In this document: positions 14,655 through 46,282 of the stretch, piece by piece
How the letters are laid out: each line of letters opens with the position of its first letter
Numbering within the stretch: position 1 is the stretch's first letter
DNA from: an uncultured Oscillospiraceae bacterium
Lineage (GTDB): Bacteria; Bacillota; Clostridia; Oscillospirales; Oscillospiraceae
NCBI GenBank assembly: GCA_947630395.1
Contig: CANRHK010000002.1
Coordinates: 1 to 46,776, forward strand
DNA length: 46,776 nt
Direction of reading: 5' to 3'
The notes under the pieces: model-generated
Told to the model about the DNA's origin: nothing
Database searches by the model: none
The model's input: the letters and a program-made list of their open reading frames with translations, nothing else
Made by a program: the position numbers and the translations under genes

Positions 14655-15001
14655 GCAATCCAAGCGTTGTTTTGAGCAAGGACACCATCTTTGTGGACGA
14701 GCTTATCCGGGAAAACGCCCGGCTGGTAATCCAGCACGAGGCGGACCAGCAGCTGATACGGGATCTCCGGGAGCGGGCCAGCAGTGAGGAATTGGAGCAG
14801 CGGCTGGCGGAAGCTCTCATGACCTGCGACGTCGCCAAGGTTGAAGCCAACCAGGCGGCGGCCAAGCTGCAAAAGGCCGTGAGCGCCCTTCACGGTGTCA
14901 TGGCCGGGGCGGACCCTTGCAAGGTGTGTCTGAAGAAGTGCCGGATGGGGGATTCGTGCGTACCCCAGTGGGTCGGGCTTGAGCCCGGAGGTGGAGAATG
15001 A
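14651..15001 (+). CDS. Phage protein, unknown function
   Basis: ATGA overlap with helicase; helical central region. Confidence 0.65.
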   Translation: MSNPSVVLSKDTIFVDELIRENARLVIQHEADQQLIRDLRERASSEELEQRLAEALMTCDVAKVEANQAAAKLQKAVSALHGVMAGADPCKVCLKKCRMGDSCVPQWVGLEPGGGE

Positions 15002-15438
15002 ATTGGAAACGCGAGGCAATCGAGAAGCTGAAAAACTACGAGGCCCACCGGGAAGCCCTGGTGTGCATCCCCAAGGAGATCAAGCGGCTGGAGCTGGCCT
15101 ATACCGGCATCCGCGGGGCGGCCACCGACGGCACCCCCGTTTCCGGGGGCACCAGCACACGGGAGGACATGATGCTGACCAACATCGTCCACCGGGACGA
15201 GTTGAAGCGGCGGCTGAAAGAGGCCAAGCTGTGGATCTCCCAGGTTGACGGGGCCCTGGGGGTCCTGGACGACGAAGAACGCCGGGTGCTGGACCGGTTC
15301 TACATCCACCGGGCAAAGGGGAACGTGGACCTGCTGTGTGAAGAATTGGGCCTTGAAAAGACCGCCGTCTATGACCGGCGGGAAAAGGCCCTGTGGCACT
15401 TCACCGTCGCCCTTTATGGGGCCACGGAAACCGAGTAA
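14998..15438 (+). CDS. Late transcription regulator-like protein (sigma-70 region 4 / ArpU-type)
   Basis: Coiled N-terminus plus LDDEERRVLDRFYIHRAKGNVDLLCEELGLEKTAVYDRREKALWHFTVALYG; sits at the early/late boundary. Confidence 0.75.
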   Translation: MNWKREAIEKLKNYEAHREALVCIPKEIKRLELAYTGIRGAATDGTPVSGGTSTREDMMLTNIVHRDELKRRLKEAKLWISQVDGALGVLDDEERRVLDRFYIHRAKGNVDLLCEELGLEKTAVYDRREKALWHFTVALYGATETE

Positions 15439-15664: not shown

Positions 15665-16204
15665 ATGGACCTGCAGTTAGTGACCATGAAGCTGTCGGAT
15701 ATTCACCCCTATGAGCGAAACCCCCGGCGGAATGACCCGGCGGTGGCCGCTGTGGTGGAGAGCATCCGGCAGTGTTCGTACATCGCCCCCATCGTCGTGG
15801 ATGAAAACGGCGTGATCCTTGCCGGGCACACCCGGTATAGGGCGATGAAGAAGCTGAAGCGGAAAGAGGCCGAGGTCATCGTAAAGGCCGGGCTCACCGA
15901 GGACCAGAAGCGGAAATACCGCCTGCTGGACAACAAGACCGGCGAGCTGGCCGAGTGGGACCTGGATCTCCTGGCCGACGAGCTGGAAGGGCTGGACTTC
16001 GGGGACCTTGACCTGGACTGGGGCCTTGGTACCGACGAGGACGAGGGGGACCAGGGCGAGAAGCCCGGCAACTTCTCCAAGTCCGAGTTTGAGTACACCC
16101 AGCAGTATGGGGTGACCGTTATCCTGGCAAACGAAGCGGAACAGGAAGCCTGCTATAACAAGCTGCGCGGAATGGGCTATGAGTGCCGGGTGGTGACCGT
16201 ATGA
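15665..16204 (+). CDS. ParB/Srx-domain phage protein
   Basis: MKLSDIHPYERNPRRNDPAVAAVVESIRQCSYIAPIVVDENGVILAGHTRYRAMKKL. Confidence 0.9.
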   Translation: MDLQLVTMKLSDIHPYERNPRRNDPAVAAVVESIRQCSYIAPIVVDENGVILAGHTRYRAMKKLKRKEAEVIVKAGLTEDQKRKYRLLDNKTGELAEWDLDLLADELEGLDFGDLDLDWGLGTDEDEGDQGEKPGNFSKSEFEYTQQYGVTVILANEAEQEACYNKLRGMGYECRVVTV

Positions 16205-17340
16205 CCAGGATCGAGGTGCACAACCGTGTCAGCGACTTCGACAGCTACCGGGCGGCACGGGTCAAGAGCCTATTCAATGCGGAGAACGGCTGCAACTTCG
16301 ATTTAGAGCTGGACGCCGATCTCTCCGGGAGCTGGAGCATCGGTGTGGTGGTCGGGCCGTCTGGATCGGGCAAGACCTCCATCGGGCGTATCATCTTCGG
16401 GGAGGATAAAATCTACGACTACACGGAGGGCTGGGCCCCCGACAAGCCGGTTATAGATTGCATCGCCCCGGATGGGGACTTCAACGAAGTGACCGGGGCC
16501 CTGGCAAATGTGGGCCTTGGGTCCGTCCCTTCCTGGCTGCGGCCTTTCCGGGTGCTGTCGAACGGGGAGCAGTTCCGTGTGGGCCTGGCCCGCATCATCT
16601 GCGAGAAGCCCCAGGAGATCGTCATTGACGAGTTCACCTCCGTGGTGGACCGGCAGATCGCACGGATAGGGTCCCAGGCATTCCAGAAGGCGTGGCGGCG
16701 GGGAAACCCAGGTGGGAAGGTGGTGTTACTCACACCCCACTACGATATCCTGGACTGGATACAGCCGGATTGGGTCATCGACACCAAGACGAGGACCTTT
16801 GAACGTGGGGTTCCCCGGCAGCGGCCAACGATTGAGCTTGAAATATGGAAGGTCAACCAAAGTTACTGGAAGTATTTTAAGCCGCATTATTATTTAGACC
16901 TCCCCATGCCGGTGGCTGGGGAGTATTTCATTGGAACCGTAGACGGAGAGCTGGCCTGTCACATGGCCGTCGCCCCGCGCTTCGAGGTACAAGGCTACCG
17001 GGGGACCCGCTTGGTGACTATGCCAGAGTGGCAAGGGGCGGGTGTTGGTATGCGGTTCCTAAATTGGGTGGCGGAGTATCACAAACAGGGCAAGGGCCGC
17101 GGAGGCCACAAATACCCCTTGTACTTCCACACCAGCCACCCGCAGATGTGCGCCGCCCTGCGGCGGAGCCCTAAATGGACACAGTGTTCCGCCGTTCTGT
17201 ACGGTGGGAACAAGGCCAAGTCCGCCAGCTCTATATGCGCCTCCCGCACGAAGCGAGGACAACACGGTATCGGGTCCGGCTATGGTGGCCACTTCCGAGC
17301 CGTCCAGGGCTTCAAGTATATCGGGGAGGTGCAGCCATGA
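16201..17340 (+). CDS. ABC-type ATPase fused to GNAT acetyltransferase domain (COG2401-like)
   Basis: Walker A GPSGSGKTS, signature LSNGEQFRVGLARI, Walker B EIVIDEF, H-loop LLTPHYD; C-terminal RLVTMPEWQGAGVGMRFLNWVAEYH and TSHPQMCAALRRSPKW. Real start MTRIEVHN at 16201 (ATGA overlap). Confidence 0.88.
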   Translation: MTRIEVHNRVSDFDSYRAARVKSLFNAENGCNFDLELDADLSGSWSIGVVVGPSGSGKTSIGRIIFGEDKIYDYTEGWAPDKPVIDCIAPDGDFNEVTGALANVGLGSVPSWLRPFRVLSNGEQFRVGLARIICEKPQEIVIDEFTSVVDRQIARIGSQAFQKAWRRGNPGGKVVLLTPHYDILDWIQPDWVIDTKTRTFERGVPRQRPTIELEIWKVNQSYWKYFKPHYYLDLPMPVAGEYFIGTVDGELACHMAVAPRFEVQGYRGTRLVTMPEWQGAGVGMRFLNWVAEYHKQGKGRGGHKYPLYFHTSHPQMCAALRRSPKWTQCSAVLYGGNKAKSASSICASRTKRGQHGIGSGYGGHFRAVQGFKYIGEVQP

Positions 17341-18077
17341 AGCTGTTTCTATGCGGACAGCGCGCCTTCGGCAAGGAGGTGTGCCGGGCCCTGCTGGCCG
17401 CCGGGCACGATATCGTCGGCGTGGCACCAGCGCCGCCGGGGAAGTACCAGGACAAGTTATACGGCTATGCTGCCGTCAAGGGCCTGCCCCTGGTGACGGA
17501 CTGTAAGAGCCTGGTGTCCAGCTGCATCCCCGACGGCACGGAGCTGATCGTGGCGGCCCACTCCCACTGGCTGATTTCCGGCCAGTGCCTGGCTAAAGCG
17601 AAGCACGGCGGCATAGGTTTTCACCCGTCCCTGCTTCCCCGTCACCGGGGGAAGGATGCGGTCCGCTGGGCTGTCCACATGGGGGACTTCGCCTCCGGTG
17701 GCACCGTCTATCGGCTGACCGACAAGACCGACGGCGGCGACATTCTGCGCCAGGAGCTGGTGTGGATCAAGCCGGGGTGGGACTACCACGACCTGTGGAA
17801 AGCCATCTTCCCCGTCGGCGTCCGGCTGTTGGTGGAGGCCGTGCGGGATATCGAGCGCGGAGCCGCCGTCGGGACCGAGCAGGACGAGAGCTGCGCCACC
17901 TGGGAGCCATCGTGGGATAGGCCCCGGCTGGAGCGGAAGGAGCTGCTGGCCCTGGGCGGCCCCGTGTCCTATTCGGACACAACGCCCACCGTCCCTCCCG
18001 AGTGTGTGGACTGCATCCGGGATTGCCGGTGGTGTACCTACAACATAGCGGACCCGGAGATTTACCACAGGAGGTGA
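17337..18077 (+). CDS. Formyltransferase (GART-fold)-like protein
   Basis: MKLFLCGQRAFGKEVCRALLAAGHDIVGVAPAP; IGFHPSLLPRHRGKDAVRWAVHMGDFASGGTVYRLTDKTDGGDIL; C-terminal CVDCIRDCRWC. Confidence 0.85.
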   Translation: MKLFLCGQRAFGKEVCRALLAAGHDIVGVAPAPPGKYQDKLYGYAAVKGLPLVTDCKSLVSSCIPDGTELIVAAHSHWLISGQCLAKAKHGGIGFHPSLLPRHRGKDAVRWAVHMGDFASGGTVYRLTDKTDGGDILRQELVWIKPGWDYHDLWKAIFPVGVRLLVEAVRDIERGAAVGTEQDESCATWEPSWDRPRLERKELLALGGPVSYSDTTPTVPPECVDCIRDCRWCTYNIADPEIYHRR

Positions 18078-18083
18078 GTGCGT

Positions 18084-18461
18084 ATGGCGAGGCCGCTGAA
18101 GAAGATAGACCAAAAGGCGTTTGAGAAGCTGTGCGGCCTCCAATGCACTCTGGAGGAAATCTGCGGCTATTTCGACGTTACCGACAAAACCCTGCGGAGC
18201 TGGTGCCGACGCACCTATGGCCGGGGTTTTTCCGAGGTTTTTTCACAAAAGCGGGGAAACGGGAAAATATCTCTCCGCCGGTGCCAGTTCCGGCTTGCCG
18301 AGAAGAACGCGAACATGGCAATCTGGCTGGGCAAGCAGTATCTGGACCAGCGGGAGCCGGATGTCCGGGGCGATAAGCCGCCCGCCGGTGAAAATAACCT
18401 CCTGGACGCTATCATGGCCACGGAGGAAGTGAATGCCGATGATTTACCAGAGGTTGAGTAA
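18084..18461 (+). CDS. terS: Terminase small subunit-like
   Basis: HTH-type N-terminus LEEICGYFDVTDKTLRSWCRRTYGRGFSEVFSQKR, immediately precedes large subunit. Confidence 0.75.
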   Translation: MARPLKKIDQKAFEKLCGLQCTLEEICGYFDVTDKTLRSWCRRTYGRGFSEVFSQKRGNGKISLRRCQFRLAEKNANMAIWLGKQYLDQREPDVRGDKPPAGENNLLDAIMATEEVNADDLPEVE

Positions 18462-39881: not shown

Positions 39882-40820
39882 TTGAAAACAAAGGAGTCAA
39901 CGGCGGCCCACAGCAAGCGCGGCTGGAAACAGCGGGCATATCAAAGCCGCTATCTGCTGATGATGATGTTTATTCCTTTTGTTTATCTGATCATTTTCCA
40001 CTATATTCCCATGTATGGCGTTCAAATCGCCTTTCGGGACTACAACCCTTATCTGGGCATTCTGAAAAGCCCTTGGGTGGGGATTTCCCACTTTATCGAT
40101 TTCTTTACCTCCACCTATTTTTGGCGCCTGATCAGAAACACATTGGCTATTAGTCTGCTTCAGCTGCTTTTGGCATTTCCCGCCGCGATTATCCTGGCGC
40201 TGATGATTAACGACCTGGAAAATAAATACTTTCAGAAAGCAGTGCAAACCATTGCCTATCTTCCCCATTTTATTTCCTCCGTGGTGGTGGCCGGTCTGGT
40301 GCTCTCTGTGCTTGCTACCCGCACGGGCATCATCAACCAGGCGCGCCATGCCCTTGGGCTGGGCGAGATTTCCTTTATGACGAAGTCATCCTATTTCCCG
40401 TTTATCATGGTACTTACCGAGATTTGGCAGAACACTGGCTGGGGCTCCATCATCTATTTGGCGGCGATGACCGCCATTGACCCGGCGCTTTATGAGGCGG
40501 CGATTGTGGACGGTGCCTCCCGCTGGCAGCAGATCCGCAACATTACGCTTCCCTGTATCCTTCCCACCATCATCATCCAGTTTATCCTAAAGGTGGGCGG
40601 CCTGTTTACCGTGGGATATCAGAAGATCCTGCTGCTGTATAACCCGCAGATTTATGAGAATGCCGATGTTATCGGAACCTATGTGTATCGCCGCGGCCTG
40701 ATGGGGCTGGAATACAGCTTCGGCGCCGCTGTGGATCTGTTCAATACCGTGCTGAACCTGCTGATGCTGCTGACGTTTAACGCTATCTGCCGCAAGGTCA
40801 GTGACACCAGCCTGTGGTAA
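39882..40820 (+). CDS. ABC transporter permease (LplB-like)
   Basis: IIFHYIPMYGVQIAFRDYNPYLGI; EAAIVDGASRWQQIRNITLPCILPTIII. TTG start at 39882 with upstream GAGGTGAG. Confidence 0.92.
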   Translation: MKTKESTAAHSKRGWKQRAYQSRYLLMMMFIPFVYLIIFHYIPMYGVQIAFRDYNPYLGILKSPWVGISHFIDFFTSTYFWRLIRNTLAISLLQLLLAFPAAIILALMINDLENKYFQKAVQTIAYLPHFISSVVVAGLVLSVLATRTGIINQARHALGLGEISFMTKSSYFPFIMVLTEIWQNTGWGSIIYLAAMTAIDPALYEAAIVDGASRWQQIRNITLPCILPTIIIQFILKVGGLFTVGYQKILLLYNPQIYENADVIGTYVYRRGLMGLEYSFGAAVDLFNTVLNLLMLLTFNAICRKVSDTSLW

Positions 40821-40832
40821 AGGGGGATTCAT

Positions 40833-41711
40833 ATGAGTATTCAAAAGCTGTCAGCGGGGGATAAAGCCTTTAAGGCAGTTAACGGGGTGGTTCTAATCCT
40901 GTTCTGCGCCCTAATCCTGTATCCGCTTTTGTGGATTGTCAGCGGCTCCTTCTCGGACCCCTTTGCGCTTATGACCGGTAAGGTCCACCTGCTGCCGGTG
41001 GATCCCACGCTGAAAATCTATAAGATTGTCTTTAAGCATCCGGATATCTGGATATCTTACCGCAATACCATTGTCTATACCGTTGTGGGTACCTTTATCA
41101 GTGTCTGCCTTACCGCCATGGCGGCGTATCCCCTTTCCAGAACCGAGTTTTTTGGTAAACAATTCTTTACGGCCGTGCTGATGATCACGATGTTTTTTTC
41201 CGGCGGCATGATCCCTACTTTTCTGCTGGTGCAGAAACTGAAAATGTTGGACACCATCTGGGCCATCGTCCTTCCGGGCGCGATGAGCGTTTACAACACC
41301 ATCGTTATGCGCACCTTCTTCATCTCCACCATTCCCAAGGAGCTGGAGGATTCCGCTTTCCTGGATGGGGCCAACGATATCCAGTTTTTCTGGAAGATTG
41401 TGCTGCCCCTTTCCAAGGCCATTATGGCGGTTATGGTGCTCTTTTACGGGGTGGGCCAGTGGAACAGCTGGTTTTCCGCTTTCCTGTACATGTCCTCCCG
41501 GGACCGCTACCCTCTTCAGCTGATCCTCCGGGAGATTCTGATTCAGGGCAATACCAACATCAGCGGTGGGGGAGGCGGCGATAACGACCTGATCGGAGAG
41601 GGCGTAAAGTTTGCCACGATGGTGGTGGCCACGGTTCCCATTATGTGCCTCTATCCATTTTTGCAGAAGTATTTTACCAAGGGCGTTATGATTGGTTCCT
41701 TAAAGGGATAA
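40833..41711 (+). CDS. ABC transporter permease (YtcP/AraQ-like)
   Basis: LYPLLWIVSGSFSDP; EDSAFLDGANDIQFFWKIVLPLSKAIMAVM. Confidence 0.92.
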   Translation: MSIQKLSAGDKAFKAVNGVVLILFCALILYPLLWIVSGSFSDPFALMTGKVHLLPVDPTLKIYKIVFKHPDIWISYRNTIVYTVVGTFISVCLTAMAAYPLSRTEFFGKQFFTAVLMITMFFSGGMIPTFLLVQKLKMLDTIWAIVLPGAMSVYNTIVMRTFFISTIPKELEDSAFLDGANDIQFFWKIVLPLSKAIMAVMVLFYGVGQWNSWFSAFLYMSSRDRYPLQLILREILIQGNTNISGGGGGDNDLIGEGVKFATMVVATVPIMCLYPFLQKYFTKGVMIGSLKG

Positions 41712-41763
41712 TGCGTTGACAGTGATTCCTTTGCCTTATATATTATTAAAGGAGGAAGATTCT

Positions 41764-43461
41764 ATGAAAACCAAGCAAAAAGCAGTGTCTATGGCTTTGG
41801 CATGTTTGTTGGCTGTTTCCTGTGCTGGGTGCAGCGGTGCTTCCGGCAGCTCCAGCGCCGCCCCTGCGTCCTCCGCGAAGAGCAGCTCCGGTACCACCCC
41901 TGCATCTTCCGCACCGAGCAGCTCCGCCTCGGAGGCTGCGGGAAATGAGTACGGTGTCCCTCAAATTTCTGAAAAACCCATTACGCTGAAGATCTATGCC
42001 TCCAAGGGCAGCGGAACTCCCGACTACAACGATATGGAGCACATGAAAAAGTATGGTGAGTTTACCAATGTGTCGGTAGAGTGGGAGCAGCCTCCGCAAG
42101 ACCTTTCCACAGAACGTTTCAACATTGTCATCGCTTCCAACGAGCTGCCAGATATGTTCTGGAACATCAAGGCCGACCAGTATACGCAGCTGAAAACCAC
42201 AAAGGCCATCATCCCGGTCCAGGATTACTTCTCCCAGTGCCCCCATCTCCAAAATGTCATGGCGGAGTTTCCCAATATGGAGAAATATATTTTTGACCCC
42301 GACGGCCAGGCGTACAGCCTTCCGTTCTTTGACGGACTGACCGTAAATGATATCATGATCCTGCGCAAGGACTGGCTGGATCAGCTTGGGATGGACGTTC
42401 CCGTCACCAAGGACGACTGGCTCCAATATTGGCGCGGCGTTCGGGACAACGACGTCAACGGAAACGGTGACAGCTCTGATGAGATCCCCCTTTCCGGCAC
42501 CAGTTTCAACAGCGTTCTCTCCCTGATGAGCGCGTTTGAGATGGACAGCATGAATAACGGCTTCTTTGTGGATCCCTCGGATGGGAACAAGGTGAAGTAC
42601 TCCTACTACGATTCTAGGTTCCGCGACTTTATAAGCTGGATTCACCAGCTCTGGGAGGAAAATATCATCGACCCAGATATCCTCTCCACCGACTCTAAAA
42701 CCTTGGGCAACAATACCGCTTTGAACCTGGTAGGCTCTTACCGCGGCAAATTAAACGGCCAGCTGAACACCTACATGACTACGATGCCGGATAAAATCCC
42801 CGGGTTTGACCTGCTGGGGACTCCGCCGATTCAAAGTGACAACGGCGTTTCCTTCCATCCTGGTTCTGTTCCTCTGGTGCGCACGGATACCATCGGCGGC
42901 GTTGTCACCGTTACGAGCAAATACCCGGAGGAATGTGTGCGGTACTGCGATTGGTTCTATGATTTTTCTGCTCCTTACGGCGGTGCATTCATGAATATCT
43001 TTGGCTATGAGGGTGTGACTTTTGAGTACGCCAACGCTGAAAAGACCGATTATCAGTATACTGACTGGGTGCTGCACAATGCTGATGGACTGTCCCCTCA
43101 ACAGGCGCTGCAGACGATGACCACCCGCTGCCAGCATCCATCCTATGTCCCTCCCATCGGCAGCTTCAAGATGTGGCATCCCTCCACGGTCGCCTCTTAT
43201 GAGAACAGCGAGCCGTATTACAATGACTCTCTGAAATATAAGGTACCCAGCCTGACCTTCAGTGATGCGGACGCGAAAACCATCCGCAGCACCATGGCGG
43301 ATATCAGCACCTACGTCTCGGAAATGAGCGCCAAGTTTATGACCGGCGAGGAGTCCCTCGACCAGTTTGAGAGCTATATTGCGACCATCCAGGGTATGGG
43401 TATTGAGAATGTCCTGGAAATTTACAACAAAACCTATCAGGAGTGGAACCAGCCCCGATAA
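41764..43461 (+). CDS. Extracellular solute-binding lipoprotein
   Basis: Signal peptide with lipobox LAVSCAGC; ELPDMFWNIKADQY; pairs with the two permeases. Confidence 0.92.
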   Translation: MKTKQKAVSMALACLLAVSCAGCSGASGSSSAAPASSAKSSSGTTPASSAPSSSASEAAGNEYGVPQISEKPITLKIYASKGSGTPDYNDMEHMKKYGEFTNVSVEWEQPPQDLSTERFNIVIASNELPDMFWNIKADQYTQLKTTKAIIPVQDYFSQCPHLQNVMAEFPNMEKYIFDPDGQAYSLPFFDGLTVNDIMILRKDWLDQLGMDVPVTKDDWLQYWRGVRDNDVNGNGDSSDEIPLSGTSFNSVLSLMSAFEMDSMNNGFFVDPSDGNKVKYSYYDSRFRDFISWIHQLWEENIIDPDILSTDSKTLGNNTALNLVGSYRGKLNGQLNTYMTTMPDKIPGFDLLGTPPIQSDNGVSFHPGSVPLVRTDTIGGVVTVTSKYPEECVRYCDWFYDFSAPYGGAFMNIFGYEGVTFEYANAEKTDYQYTDWVLHNADGLSPQQALQTMTTRCQHPSYVPPIGSFKMWHPSTVASYENSEPYYNDSLKYKVPSLTFSDADAKTIRSTMADISTYVSEMSAKFMTGEESLDQFESYIATIQGMGIENVLEIYNKTYQEWNQPR

Positions 43462-43567
43462 GGAACAAAACCACCTCTTACTTTGAAGGGCAGAGGGGCC
43501 TGCAACATTGCGGCCCCTTGTTCGGAAAAGATTTCGGTATCAATGAATGACGAAAGGATGAAAGGCT

Positions 43568-44365
43568 ATGATTAAGGAACTAAACCACGTAGCGGTAAGA
43601 ACCGGTGATATGGAGGCATCCCTCCACTTTTATGTGGATATTCTGGGCGCTAAGGTGATTCGCGACGCTACCTCCCCCGACGGTAAAGGACGCTTTGTCT
43701 ATGTCCAGCTGGTGGACGGCGTGATTGAAATCATCAAAGGCAAACCTGGCTCTGACAATTTGGGGCTTCAGCATGTGGCGTTTCTGATCTCCGACGATAC
43801 GGATATCCATCAGGTCCATGACAAGCTGGTGGGGATGGGTTACCACTTTACGGTGGAGCCGAAGCCCGCTTCCTCCGGTGATGGCTATCTGGCCTTCTTT
43901 GAGGATACCAGCGGCGCCATCTTCGAGGTGATCCAGCGCAAGGAGAATATCCGGATTCCCGGGCTGAAAAACGAACATCTGGAGGAATTTGACCATATCT
44001 CCATCCGTGTGACAGACGACAGCTATAAGCAGTGCGAGGACTTTTATCTGAACACCATGGGCTTTGAGGTGCGCCGCATTCTGGAAAAACCCAAGTCGGT
44101 GATGAGCTATTACAAATTTGGTCCCGATACGCTGGAAACGCTTTACTCCGTGGGAAAGCCCAAAGTGGAGAAGCCTCTGTGCCACATCGCGTTCCGGGTG
44201 AAGGACTGTTTTGAAACCAAGAAATATCTGGAATCCCAGGGCGTTGCCTGCCCGGAGCCGAAGACCTCCGGTATGGGAGACTTCCATGTGATGAATATCA
44301 CTGGACCGGATGGCGAGATTCTGGAATTCCTGGATCGGGTATCTCTGGATGATTATCGCAAATAA
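43568..44365 (+). CDS. Two-domain VOC/glyoxalase-family protein
   Basis: LNHVAVRTGDMEASLHFYVDILGAKV and second copy FDHISIRVTDDSYKQCEDFYLNTMGFEV; LQHVAFLI, CHIAFRV. Confidence 0.9.
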   Translation: MIKELNHVAVRTGDMEASLHFYVDILGAKVIRDATSPDGKGRFVYVQLVDGVIEIIKGKPGSDNLGLQHVAFLISDDTDIHQVHDKLVGMGYHFTVEPKPASSGDGYLAFFEDTSGAIFEVIQRKENIRIPGLKNEHLEEFDHISIRVTDDSYKQCEDFYLNTMGFEVRRILEKPKSVMSYYKFGPDTLETLYSVGKPKVEKPLCHIAFRVKDCFETKKYLESQGVACPEPKTSGMGDFHVMNITGPDGEILEFLDRVSLDDYRK

Positions 44366-44490
44366 ACAATTAGGATAACCATATGGGGCAGGGAGGTTTT
44401 CGGATTGGCGGAAGCTTTCCTGCCTTTTCTGCAAAAAGTCAGAAATACTTGTAAGCATTCTGTATCCTAAAAAGGAAAGGGTGACGGTAA

Positions 44491-45231
44491 ATGAGGATGC
44501 CATTGGCAGGTACCTGCGCGGTGGTGACCGGGGCCAGCAAGGGAATCGGCCTGGCGATTACCAAGGCGCTTTTGGAACAGGGGGTACGGGTGGCGACGGT
44601 CTCCCGCACCGCTGCCGACCTGGAGCAGGTGGTGCGGCAGCTGCGGGAGCAGTATCCCGATAGGGTAAAGGCTTTCCCGGCGGACGTGAGCCAGGAGGAG
44701 GAGGCTGTCCGGGTGATCGGGGAGATCGGAAGGGCTTTTGGACGGATTGATATCCTGATGAACTGCGCAGGTGTGAGTCAGCACAGCCCTGCCCGGCTGG
44801 AGGCGCTGGAGCGGCAGGAGTTTGAACGGATCCTGCGCACCAATCTGAACTCGGTGCTTTACTGCACCAGAGAGACGCTGCCATATCTCAGACGGCAGCC
44901 CCAGAGCTTTGTCCTTTCTATCCTCTCCACAGCCGCCTTTCATTCCAGCGGGGGAGGCTTTACCTACGCGGCGTCCAAGTACGCGGCGCGGGCGGTGATG
45001 GAGGGGCTGGAGCAGGACTGCAAGGGCTCCGGCGTTCGGGTGGCCTCCATCAGTCCCGGTCCGGTGAACACCAACATCTGGTCCCACAAGGACGTACCGG
45101 TTCCCCAGGAGCGAAAGGATAAGATGCTCCGGGCACAGGACATTGCCGAGATCGCGCTGTTTCTGCTCCGGCTGGATGACAATGTGCATATCGGCAACGT
45201 CACGGTGGAGCCGTGGTTTTACCAAAAATAA
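44491..45231 (+). CDS. Short-chain dehydrogenase/reductase
   Basis: VVTGASKGIGLAITKALLEQG; ILMNCAGVSQ; YAASKYAARAVMEGL. Confidence 0.93.
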   Translation: MRMPLAGTCAVVTGASKGIGLAITKALLEQGVRVATVSRTAADLEQVVRQLREQYPDRVKAFPADVSQEEEAVRVIGEIGRAFGRIDILMNCAGVSQHSPARLEALERQEFERILRTNLNSVLYCTRETLPYLRRQPQSFVLSILSTAAFHSSGGGFTYAASKYAARAVMEGLEQDCKGSGVRVASISPGPVNTNIWSHKDVPVPQERKDKMLRAQDIAEIALFLLRLDDNVHIGNVTVEPWFYQK

Positions 45232-45244
45232 TAAAATACAATAT

Positions 45245-45313
45245 GTGAACACCATAATACATGTTCACCTTAAGATCATTGTGCTATAATAACCGTAGAA
45301 ACGGTTGTTATAG
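45245..45313 (+). promoter_or_regulatory. Candidate regulated promoter region with two inverted repeats
   Basis: GTGAACA-N10-TGTTCAC at 45245-45268, TATAAT at 45285, CTATAATAACCGT-AGAA-ACGGTTGTTATAG at 45284-45313. Confidence 0.5.
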
Positions 45314-45421
45314 ATTGAAGTGGCCGCGCAAACCATTCGCACCCAACTGCGTTGGGTGCTCCTTCTGCGCATGGCCGATTATAGCATTCACGCTATGCTT
45401 TCTATAATAAGGAGACGAAAG

Positions 45422-46282
45422 ATGAGTAAACCAAAAGTAGCAGTCCAAACGATTGTTTTCAGCTCTGTGGTCCGGCAGGAGGGCTATGACCGGATGATGC
45501 GTTTTATCCGGGAGCTGGGGGTCCGGGAGGTTGAGCTCTCCAAGGTCCCGGTCAACCGGGATACCGTCCCGCAGATTGAAGCCCTCTGTCAGGAGTTGGG
45601 GCTGCATATCTGTGTGATGAATGTGGGCTTGGAGCCCTCTGGCCCCAAGGCGGAGGTACCGAACCTTCAGGAAAATTTGGACGAGATGGCGCAGTACGCC
45701 AACCGGTTGGGATGCCGGTACTTAAGAATCGGAAGCCTGCCCTGGTGGTGCTATGGCAAGGCGGATGAGCACCTGCGGTATGCCGGGCTGCTCAATCAGT
45801 ATGGGGAGAGGCTGTCCCATTATGGCATTAAGCTGTATCACCATCACCATGAGTTTGAATTCCAGAAATATGGCGGCGTATATGGGCTGGACCTGCTGGC
45901 CCAGAACACGGACCCCAGCTATGTAGGCTTTGAGCTGGATACCCACTGGCTGCAGTTCGGCGGACAGGAGCCCATTTCCTGGATTGAGAAGCTGAAAGGC
46001 CGCGCGGACCTGGTTCACCTGAAGGATTACCGGATTGTGATGCCTCCGGAGGGCGTTTCCGGTGAGGAACGCTCCCCCAAGGTGGTTCGGAAAAAGGTGG
46101 TACAGTTTGCGGAGATCGGAACCGGAAATCTGGATATCACCGGTGTGATCGACGCCTGCATCCGCACTGGCGTCAAATATATGCCCATTGAGCAGGATAC
46201 TTCCTATGATTTGAGCCCCTTTGAGAGCATTCGCATCAGCGTGGAGAACATCAAGAAGCTGGGCTTCACGGACTGTTTCTGA
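45422..46282 (+). CDS. Sugar phosphate isomerase/epimerase (TIM-barrel)
   Basis: GIKLYHHHHEFEFQKYGGVYGLDLLAQNTDPSYVGFELDTHWLQFGGQEP; LVHLKDYRI; start MSKPKVAVQT with RBS GGAG. Confidence 0.9.
   Translation: MSKPKVAVQTIVFSSVVRQEGYDRMMRFIRELGVREVELSKVPVNRDTVPQIEALCQELGLHICVMNVGLEPSGPKAEVPNLQENLDEMAQYANRLGCRYLRIGSLPWWCYGKADEHLRYAGLLNQYGERLSHYGIKLYHHHHEFEFQKYGGVYGLDLLAQNTDPSYVGFELDTHWLQFGGQEPISWIEKLKGRADLVHLKDYRIVMPPEGVSGEERSPKVVRKKVVQFAEIGTGNLDITGVIDACIRTGVKYMPIEQDTSYDLSPFESIRISVENIKKLGFTDCF

Follow-up and report, generated by a model that had tools for sequence, protein, structure and literature searches.

The DNA analysed here (the window, a 46,776-nucleotide contig stretch from an uncultured gut bacterium of the Oscillospiraceae) raises the question of what a cassette of three translationally coupled genes, encoding a ParB-like protein, an ABC-ATPase-GNAT fusion and a formyltransferase-like protein, does beside the terminase genes of a prophage. 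The original prediction was that the cassette modifies DNA before packaging. The cassette genes and their coupling are real: as had been claimed, three open reading frames on the + strand are joined by ATGA overlaps at 16201 and 17337. The first (15665..16204, + strand) encodes a 179-residue protein with an N-terminal ParB/Srx-type domain and a C-terminal domain that we term the tail; the second (16201..17340, + strand) encodes a 379-residue ABC-ATPase-GNAT protein (ABC-GNAT); and the third (17337..18077, + strand) encodes a 246-residue protein of the formyltransferase fold (FT). The predicted location beside the terminase also holds: a gene for an ArpU/RinA-like late-gene regulator lies directly upstream (14998..15438, + strand; phrog_36, 1.2e-11; phrog_248, 3.8e-11; TIGR01637, 3.8e-5, which is below cut-off), and a terminase small subunit-like gene (18078..18461, + strand; phrog_309 and phrog_606, ~1e-4) and then a terminase large subunit-like ORF follow. 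Read from sequence only, the ORFs of the window describe a prophage that starts on the left with an integrase-like ORF and reaches ~39.9 kb, and ORFs at 39960-46282 resemble host sugar-transport genes, which suggests a right prophage border at ~39.9 kb.

In the second protein, as predicted, an ABC ATPase whose motif set is complete is joined to a GNAT domain (ABC, residues ~1-205, ABC_tran E = 1.3e-7; GNAT, residues ~210-379), and the protein matches phrog_11143 along its whole length (2.8e-146). The ABC half contains the Walker A motif GPSGSGKTS (52-60), the signature LSNGE (119-123), the Walker B/Glu pair D143-E144, the D-loop SVVD (147-150) and H180. Alignments of relatives show motifs of the fusion protein to be invariant. 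The GNAT half of the window protein scores below the Pfam cut-off and that of a relative, L246, above it (Acetyltransf_1, 2.1e-7); an AlphaFold model of the GNAT half (pLDDT 87.3), used by itself because Foldseek searches with the full-length protein returned mostly ABC ATPases, matches acetyl-CoA GNATs of solved structure (best PDB match, E = 2e-6). GNATs use acyl-CoA, and the acyl-CoA pyrophosphate-binding motif QGAGVG (residues 278-283; 17032..17049, + strand) is invariant or nearly so across the family. The phrog_11143 group is marked by ABC motifs together with the GNAT acyl-CoA motif, whether on a single chain or on neighbouring ones; the window protein has them on a single chain. In a clade mainly from viral contigs (L056, L057, L059, L060, L062-L065, L067-L076 and others) ABC and GNAT are separate overlapping ORFs, and the two parts can presumably act as two chains.

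The prediction had likened the GNAT domain to phage Mu Mom, and in sequence this likeness does not hold. The Mom profiles (PF25680 / phrog_1384) give no match to the window GNAT and score Mu Mom at 253 and 282 bits, hhalign finds no relation between the window GNAT and the Mom family, and membership in the Mom family is ruled out by every sequence test applied. In P335 and streptococcal phages, the corresponding protein is annotated as 'ABC iron siderophore transporter'. The ABC half is indeed nearest, in sequence and in fold, to transporter and ABC-F ATPases, but the fusion to GNAT, the conserved phage operon, and the finding of no permease gene annotated alongside in the phage records inspected make the ATPase of a nutrient transporter a barely credible reading.

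The first protein is ParB/Srx-like as predicted (Pfam ParB_N, E = 1.8e-6, above cut-off; phrog_620, 6e-47), and its ParB_N domain also matches the ParB-methyltransferase fusion models phrog_498 and PADLOC MTase_II. Its last 39 residues, the tail (residues 141-179; 16085..16201, + strand; placed also by alignment), match a PHROG of their own, phrog_28816. A ParB partition protein was considered for this gene and rejected: Pfam and PHROG profiles detect no HTH DNA-binding domain, only ParB_N, and the C-terminus is the tail. The tail also occurs free-standing. A 42-residue 'acr candidate' of Porphyromonas phages is one such free-standing tail (L003, BK068090, 5873-6001; also BK068091, BK068092 and PP754929), and the anti-CRISPR label on that protein is probably wrong.

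To define how far the cassette is conserved, we scanned viral contigs, phage records and bacterial genomes, which yielded about 235 ABC-GNAT loci in 131 clusters (80% identity). The tail lies upstream of ABC-GNAT in 120 of the 126 clusters with enough sequence: as a ParB-fused domain in 60, as a free-standing protein of 40-60 residues in 58, and within other long proteins in 2. ParB is thus optional, and the constant upstream element is the tail domain of ~40 residues. FT lies downstream of ABC-GNAT in 92/113 clusters, at a distance of no more than 130 nt in 89 of them, so that the co-occurrence of ABC-GNAT and formyltransferase, which the original prediction had offered as a check, is conserved. 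The -4 (ATGA) overlap is found at 86 of 119 tail-ABC junctions and at 40 of 95 ABC-FT junctions. The same order in more than 100 divergent clusters, with the recurring -4 overlap, argues that the order of the cassette is not due to chance. The operon occurs in phages or genomes of Bacillota, Bacteroidota, Pseudomonadota, Planctomycetota, Verrucomicrobiota and Actinomycetota, and lies 5' of terminase genes in the window, in Gordonia phages, in Pasteurella phages and in several IMG/VR loci.

In the tree of ABC-GNAT proteins, FT characterises a single large clade, in which it has been lost here and there; the sister clade has no FT and keeps the ParB-tail in most members. Three histidines of ABC-GNAT, H254, H310 and H364, vary little or not at all within the FT-associated clade. 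In the sister clade all 11 have Phe in place of H254, Val or Thr mostly replaces H310, and the H364 region is mostly unaligned. ABC-GNAT is found in none of 150 further genomes from the host's family, and a search of 391 genomes of the host's class with the tail profile, a weak model of 41 positions, returns the window copy and one marginal fragment only. From this near-absence we conclude that the operon is phage cargo and that the tail is part of the operon. A host system was accordingly rejected; a tail serving as a general adaptor for other phage enzymes is likewise unsupported in the 391 class genomes, within the reach of the weak 41-position model.

Com is the translational activator of Mu mom, and is so annotated in the Mu record. 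A Com homologue (PF10122) lies directly upstream of the operon in 38 loci, corresponding to 26 clusters; 38 of 39 Com matches are upstream of the operon and 1 is elsewhere (PF10122 scores: L051, 1.6e-5; Mu Com, 2.7e-9). The com ORF overlaps the start of the tail ORF in 25 of the 26 clusters, with the +1 frame in 24 of them, by 17-77 nt, a length that varies with the start codon chosen where several are possible; the Mu com/mom overlap is 80 nt, also in the +1 frame. Com is found only with free-standing tails (26/58, vs. 0/53 for ParB-fused tails), as though the operon took either Com or ParB at its front, and the Mu-type arrangement seen in the Mu-like relatives is not seen in the window. Most Com loci fall in one clade of Mu-like phages (the exceptions on the tree are L160, L230 and L231), so that the clusters do not count as independent events. 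Porphyromonas phage008a is Mu-like, with homologues of transposase, MuB and Gam; its last genes, at the right end, are the tail, ABC-GNAT and FT, in the place that com-mom takes at the right end of the Mu genome. A search for Mom in the records of twelve Com-bearing loci found none, and detected the Mu positive control. The tail start region is predicted to fold more strongly in com+ loci (mean z -1.49) than in com- loci (mean z 0.09; p = 4e-6), and predicted Shine-Dalgarno pairing at the tail start is 0.52 vs. 0.38 (p = 0.013); the folding as a Com-related feature is suggestive only, because a hairpin test over the start in Mu itself, in the same interval, gave no signal.

The conserved co-occurrence, the com-mom position in a Mu-like phage, the presence of Com at the start of the operon and the absence of Mom from the searched Com-bearing records together support DNA modification, which we consider very probable as the function of the cassette; the attachment of Com is the strongest evidence, because Com is the translational activator of mom. 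A function on protein or RNA, in which GNAT would acylate the polymerase or ribosome of the host, in the manner of phiKMV Rac, or FT would deplete formyl-THF and so hamper the host, has in its favour that phage GNATs that modify host proteins are known (PMC7824862) and that an acceptor cannot be read from a GNAT domain alone. The Com coupling and com-mom position in Mu-like phages, the ParB domains common to the operon and DNA methyltransferases, the late position beside the terminase, and the fusion to an ABC ATPase all weigh against it, and leave it quite improbable.

The third protein is formyltransferase-like, as predicted (Formyl_trans_N, E = 2e-17). Compared with solved structures, it is closest to 10-formyl-THF dehydrogenase (FDH) in the hydrolase domain of that enzyme (4qpd; E = 5e-24 with a single sequence), and its profile scores are 146 bits for the FDH hydrolase domain, 98 for Fmt, 69 for ArnA, 53 for PurN and 33 for HypX. 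The catalytic Asn of Fmt, PurN and ArnA, two residues before the catalytic His, is replaced in 155/155 distinct FT copies (by Gly in 111, Ile in 31, Val in 8, Ala in 3 and Ser in 2), and the residue just before the His is always Tyr or Phe. The His, in the motif HPSLLP, is kept, and the catalytic Asp motif is found in 153/155. The window FT has G94-F95-H96 at this site (17616..17624, + strand), with Gly in the place of the Asn, followed by the aromatic residue and the catalytic His; D132 (17730..17732, + strand), invariant in the FT alignment, is the counterpart of catalytic Asp142 of FDH (PMC4388273). The host's own Fmt (L095) keeps the Asn. FT therefore has the FDH-type site (His and Asp, non-Asn at position 104, nearest sequence similarity) and not the Asn-His-Asp set of amine formyltransferases, and an ordinary amine formylase of the Fmt/PurN type is disfavoured. 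The residue in FDH is Ile104, and substitution I104N leaves <10% hydrolase activity; the Asn is crucial in FMT, ArnA and GART (PMC4388273). The phage FT clade has 100% support in the FT tree and its placement 46-83%; with this support for the placement, descent from FDH was not adopted, and we claim the likeness at the level of the site only, where the Asn-less site may be convergent.

Two features of FT sequences vary. Short FTs of about 140-160 residues (L003, L030, L033, L039, L040) have lost much of the N-terminal Rossmann half and kept the catalytic half. The C-terminal extension of the window FT (17980-18077) contains a CxxCx3CxxC cluster, possibly a metal site, which in the alignment is present only in the close relatives L009 and L081.

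FDH hands the formyl group to the 4'-phosphopantetheine arm of a carrier domain (PMC8748788), and HypX, which has a related domain, has been proposed to make formyl-CoA (PMC6802093). The loss of Asn as in FDH, the transfer of formyl to a pantetheine thiol by FDH and the proposal for HypX lead us to propose that FT makes a donor for GNAT. The use of acyl-CoA by GNATs points the same way. That a formyl thioester from FT feeds GNAT is plausible on this evidence, if somewhat short of an even chance. The original prediction thus stands, through co-occurrence, Com and Mu position, as to a DNA-modification cassette; a formyltransferase that itself places formyl groups on bases is less likely, the Asn being lost, than the supply of a formyl thioester to GNAT. 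FT without Asn could also carry out simple hydrolysis of formyl-THF, as the isolated FDH hydrolase domain does.

A two-step hypermodification, in which GNAT would install an amine-bearing acyl group (e.g. of glycyl type) and FT would then formylate the amine, as Fmt does with aminoacyl-tRNA, would suit the gene order, ABC-GNAT then FT, the rank of Fmt as second-best relative of FT, with its aminoacyl group on nucleic acid as substrate, and the occasional absence of FT where GNAT is kept. The Asn of amine formyltransferases is missing from every FT copy, however, Pfam finds no C-terminal formyltransferase domain, and the best match of FT is FDH, not Fmt; we regard this pathway as unlikely.

The neighbouring FT is missing in about 9 close relatives, and none is found elsewhere on their viral records, many of which are fragments; GNAT therefore apparently can work with another donor. 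Among the FT-less contigs, two bacterial genomes (L257, L258) have FDH-like chromosomal proteins away from the cassette. In one relative without FT, a gene for a family III CoA-transferase lies 350 nt downstream (L249:2263-2967; PF02515, 3.7e-10), a neighbour seen in no other locus; this single case would agree with acyl-CoA supply to GNAT, and the enzyme may be the alternative supplier. An ASCH-domain protein (2.3e-5) is encoded at L005:4936-5331, next to the separate ABC and GNAT genes of a streptococcal phage, and ASCH domains were reportedly predicted by Iyer and colleagues in 2013 as readers of modified bases. The FT-less sister clade and the occasional FT-less members, together with the generic acetyl-CoA type of the GNAT fold and this ASCH-domain gene, would fit modification of DNA with ordinary acetyl-CoA (e.g. 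to N4-acetyl-dC, cf. TmcA on RNA), FT having a side role in THF regeneration or formyl-THF hydrolysis. A side role leaves unexplained why FT adjoins ABC-GNAT in 92/113 clusters, usually with overlap, and the FT-associated clade has invariant GNAT residues of its own, H254 and H310; use of acetyl-CoA is accordingly a doubtful reading.

The best explanation of the whole is, in our estimate with a probability of roughly 0.5, that the cassette is a late prophage operon for base acylation and a functional equivalent of Mu com-mom, a reading drawn from sequence and structure comparisons. Computation shows the domains, the motifs, the conservation of the operon, its link to Com and Mu and the loss of Asn; the chemical steps, the acceptor base and the benefit we infer to be as follows. 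FT would transfer formyl from 10-formyl-THF to a thiol, most likely that of CoA, to give a formyl thioester; the GNAT domain would bind the acyl-CoA and with it acylate an exocyclic amine of a DNA base (N6 of A, N4 of C, or N2 of G); and the ABC module would dimerise on ATP and clamp or distort the duplex, presenting the base. The tail, made just before ABC-GNAT through translational coupling, would be a partner or adaptor that ABC-GNAT requires; in operons with ParB, this protein would target DNA. Modification would precede packaging, and the phage genome would be shielded from host nucleases. In its most specific form, that phages make formyl-CoA from 10-formyl-THF to N-formylate the bases of their own DNA, the explanation is tentative and less likely than not.

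If the cassette acts in this way, widespread phage operons now labelled as transporters, 'acr candidates' or purine enzymes can be tested as a DNA-modification pathway whose donor (the formyl thioester) and partner (the tail) are named and whose control switch (Com) is known; the anti-restriction repertoire of phages gains one more base modification; and FDH-like formyl transfer to thiols gains a second biological use. If N-formylation in particular is true, the modified nucleoside and this use of formyl-CoA would both be new, and ABC-GNAT, replacing Mom under Com, would have its first biochemical role. Gordonia phages with the full operon have already been isolated; in Axumite, Shatter and Ligma, ParB-tail, ABC-GNAT and FT are encoded by genes 1-3.

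Several known systems bear comparison with the operon. TmcA, the tRNA cytidine acetyltransferase, acylates a nucleobase amine and likewise joins an NTPase to GNAT in one protein; its ATPase is of a class different from the ABC ATPase here, and the two are compared at the level of the generic GNAT fold. The nearest precedent is the COG2401-like system, a phage-encoded ABC ATPase coupled to GNAT, that Iyer et al. (2013, doi 10.1093/nar/gkt573) predicted to acylate DNA bases, as reported in PMC7824862; their example, from Tenacibaculum phage pT24, is also among the matches of the present ABC-GNAT. FT, the tail and Com go unmentioned in the passage of PMC7824862 on this prediction. In the literature searched, in which Iyer et al. 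is represented through PMC7824862, we found no paper for the COG2401 or ABC-GNAT names, for formylated phage DNA or for the gene combination, no mention of the Com link, the tail or the FT chemistry and, as the original prediction had supposed, no experimental description of the ABC-GNAT/formyltransferase combination. To this the present analysis adds statistics on the operon, the tail, the connection with Com and the argument from the active site of FT.

ParB domains are known near phage modification enzymes, in ParB-methyltransferase and ParB-CmoX neighbourhoods (PMC12783734). These are alike in placing a ParB_N-domain protein beside a DNA-modifying enzyme, whereas the present operon is without methyltransferase and has, in about half of operons, the bare tail in place of ParB. 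The FDH hydrolase domain (ALDH1L1) and the HypX N-domain belong to the same fold family as FT and keep His and Asp, and FDH, like FT, has the Asn replaced and an aromatic residue at -1; FT differs from both as a free-standing phage protein of ~150-250 residues, without carrier or dehydrogenase domain, in a monophyletic phage clade. Mu com-mom, finally, has Mom as modifier and is without a tail, whereas here the modifier would be ABC-GNAT, not a Mom-family protein, a tail gene stands between com and ABC-GNAT, and FT is added; and whereas Mu has Com in front, the operon of the window starts with ParB.
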